This document shows, piece by piece, positions 6,284 to 32,040 of a stretch of DNA of 36,129 nt. The notes beneath the pieces are model-generated. The model saw nothing but the letters and a program-made list of their open reading frames with translations, made no database searches and had not been told where the DNA came from. Source of the DNA: an uncultured Alphaproteobacteria bacterium. Lineage in GTDB: Bacteria; Pseudomonadota; Alphaproteobacteria; RF32; CAG-239. Numbering within the stretch: position 1 is the first letter of the stretch; every line of letters begins with the position of its first letter. The position numbers were made by a program, and so were the translations under genes. The DNA lies in assembly GCA_944390915.1 (NCBI GenBank), contig CALXRS010000017.1, forward strand, positions 1-36,129, in the 5' to 3' direction.

Positions 6284-6312
6284 TTGACTCGCCGCCGCTC
6301 TTGTATTACATT
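6284..6312 (+). promoter_or_regulatory. Candidate promoter of the ileS leader transcript
   Basis: TTGACT (6284-6289), a 17-bp spacer and TACATT (6307-6312) would start RNA near 6318-6320, about 30 bases before a leader peptide start and 170 bases before ileS. The -10 matches consensus at four of six bases. Confidence 0.55.
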
Positions 6313-6343
6313 ATCGGCTTGTAAATGATATTGCAGGACTTTT

Positions 6344-6423
6344 GTTTTATGTGCGTTTTTTTGATACATTCCGCTTTCATTATTATCCCCTGAGGGGATG
6401 ATATTTTATTTTGCACATAAAAC
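6344..6423 (+). promoter_or_regulatory. Candidate ileS leader attenuator
   Basis: An inner hairpin pairs 6381-6390 with 6394-6403 (10 bp including one G-U, 3-nt loop) and is followed by a U-rich tract (TTTTATTTT), like an intrinsic terminator. Its 5' arm is made of the consecutive Ile codons ATT ATT ATC and the Pro codon of an upstream short reading frame. An exact 11-bp outer inverted repeat (6344-6354 with 6413-6423) encloses it and covers that frame's start codon. A ribosome paused at the Ile codons would keep the inner hairpin open and let transcription reach ileS. The two stems are nested rather than mutually exclusive, so this is not the classical alternating design. Confidence 0.6.
6349..6393 (+). 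CDS. Putative ileS leader peptide (14 residues)
   Basis: The frame encodes MCVFLIHSAFIIIP followed by TGA. Four of 14 residues are isoleucine, three of them consecutive and just before the stop. This is the hallmark of a leader peptide that senses charged tRNA-Ile. AGGA (6335-6338) lies 10 bases upstream of the ATG. An in-frame ATG at 6325 would give a 22-residue version (adding MILQDFCF) but has no ribosome-binding site. The stop codon falls exactly in the loop of the hairpin described at 6344-6423, and ileS begins about 100 bases downstream. It is too short to be certain from sequence alone. Confidence 0.6.
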   Translation: MCVFLIHSAFIIIP

Positions 6424-6490
6424 ATTTACCGAAAAATCTGAATCCGATTGATTTTATACGTTCATCTGAAAAATTTAAGGTGTTGGAATA

Positions 6491-9400
6491 ATGACGAAAT
6501 ATTATGCCGAGCAGCAGGCAAAACCGGACTTTGCCGAACTTGAAAAAAACGTTCTCAAATTTTGGGAAGAAGATAAAACTTTTGAAAAATCCGTGCACAA
6601 CCGCGACGGCGCGGCCGAATTTGTTTTTTACGACGGCCCTCCGTTTGCCAACGGCACCCCGCACTACGGGCATATCATGGTGTCTTACGTCAAAGACGTG
6701 GTGGCTCGTTTCCAAACCATGTGCGGCAAAAAGGTAGACCGCCGTCTGGGATGGGACTGCCACGGTCTGCCGGCGGAAATGTCGGCGGAAAAACAGCTGG
6801 GTGTTTCCGGCCGCAAGCAGATAGAAGCTTACGGGGTTGAAAAATTCAATAACTTTTGCCGGCAGGACGTGTTGAAATATTCCAACATCTGGGTCGATAT
6901 GTTCAAGCGCATCGGCCGCTGGGTAGATTTTTCGCACGACTACAAAACCATGGATCTGCCGTTCATGGAAAGCGTGATACATAATTTCAGGGAGCTTTAC
7001 GACAAGGGGCTGATTTATGAAGATTTCCGCGTGCTGCCATATTCCTGGGCGGCGGAAACGCCGTTGTCTAACTTTGAGGTCAACCAGGGCTATCAGGACA
7101 AAACGGATACGGCGATTACGGTTTTGTTCAGGCTTGAAAACGGCATGAAAATTCTGGTGTGGACCACCACGCCCTGGACTTTGCCGTCCAACCTGATGCT
7201 TGCCGTCGGCAAAGATATTTCCTATGCCGTCATGGAAGAAGACGGGCAAAAATATATTCTGGCGGAAGCTCTGCTCGGACGCTACAAGCAGCAGCTGGCC
7301 AAAGCCGAACGCGTCGGCACCATGAAAGGTTCCGAGCTGGTGGGTTTAAGCTATGAGCCGATGTTCCCCTATTTTGCGCGGCTGAAGGAAAAAGGCGCGT
7401 TCAAAGTGCTGTCGGGCGAGTTTGTTTCCGTTGAAGACGGCACCGGCGTGGTGCATATCGCGCCGGGTTTCGGTCAGGACGACTTTGACGCCTGCCGCGC
7501 CTATGACAAAGATTTTCCGATCGTCTGCCCGGTGGACGAGGCCGGCAAGTTTACCGCCGAAGTTCCGGACTACGAAGGAAAGCAGGTGTTTGAAACCAAC
7601 GAGCCGATTATGCAGTGGTTGAAACAAAACGGTTTGCTGGTCAAAAAAGAGCAGTATACGCACTCTTATCCTTTCTGCTGGCGCACCGACACGCCGCTGA
7701 TTTACAAGGCGATGAGCTCCTGGTTTGTCCGGGTGACCGAGTTCCGCGACGAGATGGTTCGCCTCAATCAGGAAATCAACTGGGTGCCGGAACATATTAA
7801 AGACGGCCGTTTCGGCAAATGGCTGGAAGGCGCCCGCGACTGGTCGATCTCGCGCAACCGTTTCTGGGGCACGCCGATTCCCGTCTGGAAATCGGACAAT
7901 CCGCAATATCCGCATATCGACGTGTTCGGCTCGCTTGCGGAAATCAGAGAAAAAACCGGCGTGGAGGTAACCGATCTGCACAAGCCCTATATTGATGACG
8001 TGGTCTATCCGAACCCGACTGACCCCACCGGCAAAAGTATGATGAGGCGCGTGTCCGACGTGTTCGACTGCTGGTTTGAATCGGGCTCCATGCCTTATGC
8101 CCAGGTGCATTATCCTTTTGCCAACAAAGAATGGTTTGAAAGCCACTTCCCGGCCGATTTTATTGTCGAGGCAATGGATCAGACCCGCGGCTGGTTCTAT
8201 ACCCTGACCGTTCTGTCAACGGCTCTGCACCACAAGCCGGCGTTTAAGAACTGCATCTGCACCGGTCTGCTGATGGCCGAAGGCGGGCAAAAGCTCTCCA
8301 AGCGGTTGAAAAACTACCCCGATCCGGCAATGGTGCTCGATAAAATCGGCTCCGACACTTTGCGCTGGTTTTTGGTTTCTTCCCCGGTCTTGAAAGGCGG
8401 CAATCTGGCCGTTGATCAGGAAGGCAAAGAAATCGTCAAGGCCGCGAGGGTGGCGCAGATTCCGTTCTGGAACGCTTTTTACTTTTTCACCCTCTATGCC
8501 AATGCCGAGGGCTACCGCGCCAAAGAAGTCGCAACGTCCGAAGATTCGCTTGACCGGTATATTCTGTCGCGTCTGAAGATGCTTGCCGCCGAAGTCAAAA
8601 AAGGGCTCGACACTTATGACGTGGCGCATTCCTGCAACGAAATTGCGGCGTTTATGGAGGTTTTGAACAACTGGTACATCCGCCGCAGCCGCGACCGCTT
8701 CTGGGCGGGCGACAGGCAGGCTTTTGACGTGCTCTACACGGTGCTGGTCAATTTGAGCAAAATTTTGGCGCCGCTGATGCCCTTTACCGCCGAACATGTT
8801 TATCAGACGCTGGTTGATGCCAAAGCTTCGGTTCATCTTGCCGACTATCCGCTGCTGACGGATATCGAAGCCGACGACCGGCTGGTGGCGGAAATGGATT
8901 TTGTGCAGGATTTGTGCTCGGCCGGAAAATTCATCCGCGAAGAAAAAAATCTGCGCAACCGGCTGCCGCTTTCCTCGCTGACCGTTGCCGGAGAAAACAT
9001 AAGCTTTTTGCAGGGGCAATACAGGGAAATAATCAAAGACGAGCTGAACGTCAAAGAGGTTGTTTTTGACGAAGACGTTTCCCGCCACGCGGCAAAATCG
9101 CTTTACCTCTATACGCCGCTTTTGGGCAAAAAGCTCGGCAAGAGCATGGGGCAGGTGATGGCCGCCTATAACGAATACAGAAAAACGGGCGTGCCCTGCT
9201 GGGCGGAAAACGGCAATGAAGGCATTTCCCTTGCCGGTGTTTTCCTGACGCCCGATCTGTACGAAGAACGTCTGGAGATTTTGGGCGGCAAGGCGGGCAA
9301 GGCTTTTGCCGACAACAAGGCGGTGGTTGTTCTCGATACGGAAGTAACGCCCGCGCTTGCCCGCGAAGGCATGGCGCGCGATTTTGTCCGGCTGGTGCAG

Positions 9401-9640
9401 AATCTGCGTAAGGAAAAGGATTTTAACATTTCCGACCGTATCCGCCTGAGCTGGCAGACGGACGACGAAACCCTGCGCCTGGCCTTAAAAGAAAACGAAG
9501 AATATATCAAGTCGCAGGTTCTGGTGCCGGCGGAAGAAAAAGTTGCCGACAGCTGCGCGGCGGGAACGACGGCCGAAATAGAAGGAGCCACCGTTGTCTT
9601 TGACGTTGAGGTTCTGCCCTCGCTGAGAAAAGGAGCATAA
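6491..9640 (+). CDS. ileS: Isoleucyl-tRNA synthetase, eukaryote-like (IleRS2) type
   Basis: A class I synthetase that charges tRNA-Ile with isoleucine and edits misactivated valine. The HIGH motif is HYGH within PPFANGTPHYGH (residues 50-61), followed by GWDCHGLP. The editing (CP1) domain is seen around TTTPWTLPSNL and GFGQDDFDACRAYD. The KMSKS loop is KLSKR, followed by LKNYPDP (601-605). HYGH with a KxSKRLKNYP loop and the 1049-residue length place it in the type 2 clade shared with eukaryotic cytosolic enzymes, not the usual type 1 with KMSKSLGN and a C-terminal zinc finger. No terminal zinc-binding cysteine cluster is present. Type 2 enzymes are typically insensitive to mupirocin. It is co-transcribed with trmL five bases downstream. 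Confidence 0.97.
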   Translation: MTKYYAEQQAKPDFAELEKNVLKFWEEDKTFEKSVHNRDGAAEFVFYDGPPFANGTPHYGHIMVSYVKDVVARFQTMCGKKVDRRLGWDCHGLPAEMSAEKQLGVSGRKQIEAYGVEKFNNFCRQDVLKYSNIWVDMFKRIGRWVDFSHDYKTMDLPFMESVIHNFRELYDKGLIYEDFRVLPYSWAAETPLSNFEVNQGYQDKTDTAITVLFRLENGMKILVWTTTPWTLPSNLMLAVGKDISYAVMEEDGQKYILAEALLGRYKQQLAKAERVGTMKGSELVGLSYEPMFPYFARLKEKGAFKVLSGEFVSVEDGTGVVHIAPGFGQDDFDACRAYDKDFPIVCPVDEAGKFTAEVPDYEGKQVFETNEPIMQWLKQNGLLVKKEQYTHSYPFCWRTDTPLIYKAMSSWFVRVTEFRDEMVRLNQEINWVPEHIKDGRFGKWLEGARDWSISRNRFWGTPIPVWKSDNPQYPHIDVFGSLAEIREKTGVEVTDLHKPYIDDVVYPNPTDPTGKSMMRRVSDVFDCWFESGSMPYAQVHYPFANKEWFESHFPADFIVEAMDQTRGWFYTLTVLSTALHHKPAFKNCICTGLLMAEGGQKLSKRLKNYPDPAMVLDKIGSDTLRWFLVSSPVLKGGNLAVDQEGKEIVKAARVAQIPFWNAFYFFTLYANAEGYRAKEVATSEDSLDRYILSRLKMLAAEVKKGLDTYDVAHSCNEIAAFMEVLNNWYIRRSRDRFWAGDRQAFDVLYTVLVNLSKILAPLMPFTAEHVYQTLVDAKASVHLADYPLLTDIEADDRLVAEMDFVQDLCSAGKFIREEKNLRNRLPLSSLTVAGENISFLQGQYREIIKDELNVKEVVFDEDVSRHAAKSLYLYTPLLGKKLGKSMGQVMAAYNEYRKTGVPCWAENGNEGISLAGVFLTPDLYEERLEILGGKAGKAFADNKAVVVLDTEVTPALAREGMARDFVRLVQNLRKEKDFNISDRIRLSWQTDDETLRLALKENEEYIKSQVLVPAEEKVADSCAAGTTAEIEGATVVFDVEVLPSLRKGA

Positions 9641-31611: not shown

Positions 31612-31638
31612 CCGTTCCTCCGTAAAAAAATAAACTTG

Positions 31639-32040
31639 CAGGCAGTCTGTAAGCCGGGTTCTGTATCCCGTTTTCTTTGCCTTTGCGGCAAGGGTCGGGA
31701 TGGCAGCCATTCATCTCGGCCGCCCGTTGCCGGAACGGCTCAATGCGACCTACCTCTGGAGCAGGGTGGAAACGCCCCGTATAACCGGCAACAGCCGATC
31801 CTCCTGACTTGGTCTTGCTTCAAACAGGGTTTACCTCAAGCCAAAACCGTTGCCGGTTTTGCGGTGAGCTCTTACCTCGCCTTTTCAACCTTACCGGAAC
31901 CTGTCCGGCGGTAACTTTCTGCGGCACTTTCCCGTGGATTTCTCCAGCCGGACGTTATCCGGTGTTTTGTTTCCATGAAGCCCGGACTTTCCTCGTCGGC
32001 GGATTTTCCTTTCCGTGACGCGGCTGCCCGACCGCCTTGT
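31639..32040 (-). ncRNA. rnpB: RNase P RNA, bacterial type A
   Basis: The catalytic RNA that trims 5' leaders from tRNA precursors. On the minus strand the universal GAGGAAAGTCCGGGC core lies at 31980-31994, GAGGTAAGAGCTCACCGC at 31861-31878, and ACAGAACCCGGCTTA at 31650-31664. GATGAATGGCTGCC appears before the end. The 5' AGGCGGTC (about 32031-32038) and 3' GACTGCCT pair as helix P1, which sets the ends within a few bases. At about 400 nt it is of normal size. A T-run follows the 3' end (31624-31630). It lies directly upstream of lpxC. Confidence 0.96.

Follow-up and report, generated by a model that had tools for sequence, protein, structure and literature searches.

The region upstream of ileS, the isoleucyl-tRNA synthetase gene of an uncultured alphaproteobacterium, raises the question of whether expression of the gene follows the charging of tRNA-Ile and, if so, by what arrangement of RNA and ribosome. 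The window, i.e. the whole analysed stretch of 36,129 nucleotides, belongs to an alphaproteobacterial genome of 1.54 Mb in 45 contigs. A first-pass annotation had proposed a 14-codon frame behind a promoter-like sequence, followed by a 10-bp hairpin with the stop codon as its loop and a U-rich tail, and all of these parts are present (Table 1). The frame reads ATG TGC GTT TTT TTG ATA CAT TCC GCT TTC ATT ATT ATC CCC TGA, and the inner hairpin (6381-6403) pairs 10 bp around the TGA loop and runs directly into the U-tract. The outer inverted repeat is perfect and covers the start codon, as had been described, and is 12 bp long rather than 11.

Table 1. Features of the ileS leader locus and a further RNA gene in the window.
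Feature	Position	Strand	Basis
Leader promoter, sigma-70-like, TTGACT-17-TACATT	6284-6312	+	Consensus scan of sequence
Outer stem, 5' arm, spanning leader start codon	6343-6354	+	Inverted repeat, own-genome pairing
Leader peptide frame MCVFLIHSAFIIIP-stop, 14 codons	6349-6393	+	Read from sequence
ATA Ile codon, conserved in relatives (codon 6, position -9)	6364-6366	+	ATA in 38/49 leaders
Putative sensing codons ATT ATT ATC (Ile 11-13)	6379-6387	+	Ile conservation in 49 leaders
Inner hairpin, 5' arm UAUUAUCCCC, built from last sense codons	6381-6390	+	Scan, folding, within-genome pairing
Stop codon TGA, the inner hairpin loop	6391-6393	+	Stop codons in 49 leaders
Inner hairpin, 3' arm GGGGAUGAUA	6394-6403	+	Scan, folding
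U-tract TTTTATTTT of putative terminator	6404-6412	+	T enrichment after hairpin in relatives
Outer stem, 3' arm	6413-6424	+	Folding, inverted repeat, own-genome pairing
ileS Shine-Dalgarno-like AAGGTG, unpaired with leader hairpin arms	6477-6482	+	Sequence, pairing test
ileS, isoleucyl-tRNA synthetase, eukaryote-like, mupirocin-resistance-like type	6491-9640	+	Profile and structure matches
RNase P RNA, class A	31634-32039	-	Rfam RF00010, 262 bits

The evidence for the leader element from this single sequence is near chance. Consensus scanning gave one terminator-like site against 1.7 expected from shuffles and three promoter-like sites against 1.3 expected; the scans alone do not rise above shuffled sequence, and the fold of the whole leader reached a z-score of only -2.7 against shuffles. 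The significance of the element rests on comparison between genomes. No further perfect copy of the motif was found in the window's genome, the sole one being that which precedes ileS.

Comparison of the regions upstream of ileS in 30 sampled genomes of the order, among them that of the window, revealed the same frame and hairpin at 28 of the 30 loci. Both loci lacking the element belong to a single genus (g4), in which the exact motif was absent from all 18 genomes; across the order, 124 of 153 genomes carry it, and these fall in 16 of 17 genera. Among the g4 loci without the leader motif (e.g., L028 and L029), L028 carries a promoter-like sequence close to ileS instead. Thirty additional loci were tested, 28 of which were confirmed near ileS, and a total of 49 distinct leaders was compared.

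The frame itself is conserved in these leaders. All 49 leaders start with ATG, which is conserved together with purine-rich Shine-Dalgarno-like stretches, and their lengths range from 11 to 16 codons, with 14 or 15 codons in 46 of them. The terminal Ile-Ile-Pro-stop is shared by 48 of 49 leaders. The last sense codon is always Pro (CCC in 27, CCT in 22), the codon before it (position -2) is ATC in 49/49, position -3 is ATT in 48/49 and position -4 is an Ile codon in 30/49. The alignment of relatives suggested by the first-pass annotation thus yielded the conserved Ile-rich short frames that it had proposed to look for. The stop codon lies in the hairpin loop and is always in frame, with all three stops in use (TAG 35, TAA 11, TGA 3). 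Leaders that have CCT in place of CCC as the Pro codon lack one G after the stop, so that the two hairpin arms stay equal. Ile codons outside the last three positions amounted to 31% in frame, whereas the two remaining reading frames had 12% and 6%. One of these, at position -9, is ATA in 38 of the 49 leaders, while in five genes of the window ATA accounts for 14 of the 106 Ile codons. Since ATA is decoded by a different tRNA-Ile species from that which decodes ATT and ATC, the order leader may sample both.

The RNA stems are conserved as pairings. Outer-stem pairing scored -10.8 within the own genome at 28 loci and -8.1 (sd 0.47) after re-pairing, and the 49 leaders gave -11.2 and -8.7 (sd 0.36), respectively, with 0/20000 permutations in each case; the same within- versus between-genome pairing test gave no signal in adjacent control regions. 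The sequences of the outer stem vary from genome to genome (ATGTGC/GCACAT, GAAAAGC/GCTTTTC, TACGCAAA/TTTGCGTA). For the arms of the inner hairpin, which encloses loops of 3-4 nt in the order leaders, pairing within genomes likewise surpassed re-pairing between genomes (0/5000). A promoter of the form TTGACN or TTGATT-17-TANNNT was located 18-41 nt upstream of the leader ATG at 27 of the 28 loci. At least six T within eight bases, lying no more than 16 nt past the hairpin, were present at 71% of the 28 loci and in 14% of control stretches, and the T fraction at positions 5-8 past the hairpin was 0.71-0.92 in the 49 leaders.

A conserved alternative partner for either arm of the inner hairpin, upstream or downstream, was not found in the order leaders, and folding of the window leader with a ribosome masked produced no competing structure. 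These results argue against a classical antiterminator. Nor do they indicate that the ribosome-binding region of ileS is sequestered by the arms; pairing of the hairpin arms with the ileS Shine-Dalgarno region carried no conserved signal. When the footprint of a ribosome standing at any one of the last three Ile codons was masked in folding, the inner hairpin was lost and the outer stem was kept. The simplest reading is that an Ile-stalled ribosome blocks the terminator directly, and the simple ribosome-occlusion switch considered in the first-pass annotation is upheld, as neither arm was found to have a partner that would compete with the hairpin. A point against this reading is that a ribosome masked at the stop codon removes the hairpin as well, so termination would need release that is fast relative to RNA polymerase. 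With a release rate of about 1 per second, the value used in a modelling paper (PMC1183508), a sizeable basal read-through is predicted.

We consider it probable that a leader-peptide attenuator ties ileS expression to charged tRNA-Ile. Its conservation in Alphaproteobacteria makes it most likely that a stalled ribosome keeps the hairpin from ending transcription and thereby yields more synthetase when it is needed. In this scheme we infer that transcription starts near 6319, that the leader is translated, that transcripts terminate, and which way the response runs. The ribosome would translate the 14-codon leader and, when Ile-tRNA is scarce, would stall when one of codons 11-13 occupies its A site; in this position it would hide the 5' arm of the hairpin under its footprint, block the terminator and permit read-through into ileS. 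When Ile-tRNA is plentiful, the ribosome would pass these codons and be released at the loop's stop codon, after which the hairpin could form ahead of the U-tract and the transcript would end near 6405-6412. The outer stem would close over the leader start once the RNA is finished or if it is untranslated. By shutting the start region it probably stops new ribosomes from loading, and it would keep the hairpin domain compact. The lack of the element in genus g4 (18/18 genomes) counts against this scheme.

How far the element extends beyond the order was followed at the level of the class. A covariance model built on the order and run against 385 class genomes recovered only order members and one further family (G196), the leader of which reads MSDIRSISIIISIIIP-stop. 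As this model found almost nothing class-wide, the class form was sought directly in the sequences that precede ileS. Class leaders were also aligned for a second covariance model, but their 3' arms came out of register and this alignment was set aside. Among 101 class ileS upstream regions, ten more families showed a related layout. A short frame contains R-I-I-x-P close to its end, mostly with A or V as the next residue, and in nearly all families it leads into a strong hairpin that has the stop codon within or beside its loop. The bare count of Ile-tandem frames upstream of class ileS genes was not above that of other amino acids; only R-I-I-x-P together with the hairpin is informative. The motif CGAATTATCNNCCCG occurred in 62 of the 385 class genomes; from 30 of its loci that were fetched, 18 had the motif in a short frame that closes shortly behind it, and ileS came next in 16 of these. 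In a named collection the motif GCGAATTATCGGCCCGG was present in at least 120 stretches, mostly of Alphaproteobacteria, and at 59 of 80 exact motif places the site lay in a short leader frame with an ileS start within about 225 nt. Alphaproteobacteria with the layout in front of ileS include Rhizobium, Xanthobacter, Microvirga and Rhodobacter, the leader of Rhizobium johnstonii 3841 being MKKYRLAMMMRIIGPAFRAR. The hairpin arms of 45 of the ileS-linked sites paired worse when swapped between species (0/5000); the covarying arms anticipated at the outset were recovered for the inner hairpin, the outer stem and the class-level hairpins alike. The hairpin sequences themselves vary across the class while R-I-I-x-P stays. 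Some order leaders (L054, L055, L058, L059 and L072) read R-I-I-P and thus form a bridge between the order form and the class form, and the two may share descent.

Several class loci carry the motif in front of other genes. At two Azospirillum loci (L248 and L267) an R-I-I-G-P leader with a stop-in-loop hairpin is followed by a threonine-ammonia-lyase-family gene and not by ileS, as expected of an Ile sensor. Further R-I-I-x-P leaders precede small stand-alone proteins in Azospirillum (L259, L261), in Minwuiaceae (L280) and in genome G034 (L209); these proteins look alike by eye, have weak or no matches to the ACT domain (ACT_5), and are possibly a separate regulatory subunit tied to isoleucine synthesis. 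Two Pseudomonas matches (L238 and L294) contain the exact motif with no ileS after it and were rejected as ileS leaders. One genome of the same class (G284) holds seven copies of CGAATTATCGACCCG, probably a dispersed repeat.

The synthetase genes behind these leaders are of different types. The window ileS product scored 887 bits against TIGR00392 and about 735 bits against the MupA and MupB models, under the cut-offs of the latter, and cytoplasmic IleRS is among its closest solved structures. The IleRS of most sampled genomes of the class share only about 30% identity with it, and those behind R-I-I-x-P leaders have another N-terminus type (DYK/DYS..T..LP.T.FPM). If the leaders are homologous, the leader has outlived a change of synthetase type. 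We lean slightly towards the broader view that a widespread alphaproteobacterial Ile attenuator operates without an antiterminator, its sensing codons forming or abutting the 5' arm and its stop lying within or close to the loop, with an outer stem that shuts its start in the window's order. Such an attenuator would control ileS and sometimes Ile-biosynthesis genes, and would have been kept in the order despite the eukaryote-like ileS there.

GC-rich relatives bear on how the hairpin acts. They conserve the stop-in-loop hairpin mostly without a good U-tract, so intrinsic termination cannot be the rule across the class, and these relatives may rely on Rho or on some other step downstream. The same observation favours an alternative in which the Ile-sensing leader is retained and the RNA left after ribosome release is acted on by Rho, or in which the hairpin only pauses polymerase or alters mRNA stability, each prevented by a stalled ribosome. 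Within the order, however, the U-tract keeps a fixed offset from the hairpin and is much more frequent there than in neighbouring sequence, and we regard this alternative as unlikely, although the most credible of those weighed. The GC-rich versions raise a testable question, namely how read-through is decided in them.

The invariable Pro at the end of the order leaders could point to arrest by the nascent peptide, with Ile-Ile-Pro-stop pausing the terminating ribosome as in TnaC and the signal being something other than Ile-tRNA charging. This TnaC-like C-terminal Pro before the stop, found in 49/49 leaders of the order, is nevertheless not conserved in the rest of the class, where Pro mostly stands several codons before the stop and the residues after it vary; the Pro-stop context is thus not conserved. 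The hairpin itself requires the CCC codon, and Ile codons are enriched in frame upstream too. We regard peptide arrest as very improbable.

The palindromic and well-conserved core ATTATTATCCCYTARGGGGAT would also suit an RNA element resembling a tRNA or bound by a protein (e.g., a leader recognised by IleRS itself), or an operator at the DNA level, the frame being incidental in either case. We give this even less credence, as frame, stop and Ile codons are conserved while the three stop codons interchange, loops of 3-4 nt are unlike an anticodon loop, hairpin sequences of the class differ around a constant R-I-I-x-P, and no Rfam family fits. An ordinary constitutive 5' UTR terminator with a chance frame would agree with single-sequence scans that do not beat shuffles, is contradicted by all comparative results, is already refuted as to conservation and deserves practically no weight.

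Among known elements, nothing plausible was returned by Rfam, at gathering and permissive thresholds, for the window site or the R. johnstonii site. A T-box riboswitch, with its specifier loop and T-box sequence, was rejected as there was no Rfam match. The proposal made from the window sequence is supported, with termination itself putative; its layout is widespread in Alphaproteobacteria and no peculiarity of this genome. The 2004 survey by Vitreschak et al., the main survey of proteobacterial attenuators, may already contain a prediction for ileS. In the literature searched the phrase 'ileS leader' appeared in PMC4117421 only, a 2014 ribosome-profiling study that names the Caulobacter crescentus ileS leader CDS CCNA_03934, so that an ileS leader CDS had already been mentioned in an alphaproteobacterium, where the first-pass annotation knew of no described case of attenuation. 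CCNA_03934 serves there just as a negative control and as a cloned construct, with no sequence, structure or mechanism given (PMC4117421), and it resembles the window leader, by description alone, as a short CDS before an alphaproteobacterial ileS.

With the proteobacterial leader-peptide attenuators of amino-acid operons and pheST the ileS leader shares a promoter, a short frame, a run of cognate codons, a terminator-like hairpin, a U-tract and a regulated gene; in the window's order we found the leader frame after a promoter, the Ile codon run before ileS and the hairpin with its U-tract. As in pheST attenuation (cited in PMC1262725), the target is a synthetase gene. Classical trp and his attenuators possess a mutually exclusive antiterminator hairpin, whereas none was found in the ileS leader, which also differs from classical attenuators in placing the sensing codons and the stop codon inside the terminator hairpin and in having an outer stem over the leader start. 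In pyrBI-type attenuation a closely trailing ribosome covers the terminator, the signal being the speed of polymerase at low UTP. The direct block of the terminator by a leader ribosome without an antiterminator would be shared with pyrBI, but the Ile codons beside the hairpin imply charged tRNA as the signal. If our reading is true, attenuation would take a minimal form here, with the ribosome acting as its own antiterminator, and Alphaproteobacteria including Rhizobium, Xanthobacter, Microvirga and Rhodobacter would have a common charged-tRNA sensor for ileS. T-box elements precede ileS in Firmicutes. They also do so in several Actinobacteria (PMC1262725). They serve the same gene and respond to the same signal, the charging of tRNA-Ile; T-boxes bind tRNA directly and without a leader peptide, whereas the ileS leader has a peptide frame and no Rfam match. 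The alphaproteobacterial leader would, on this view, serve where Gram-positives use T-boxes.
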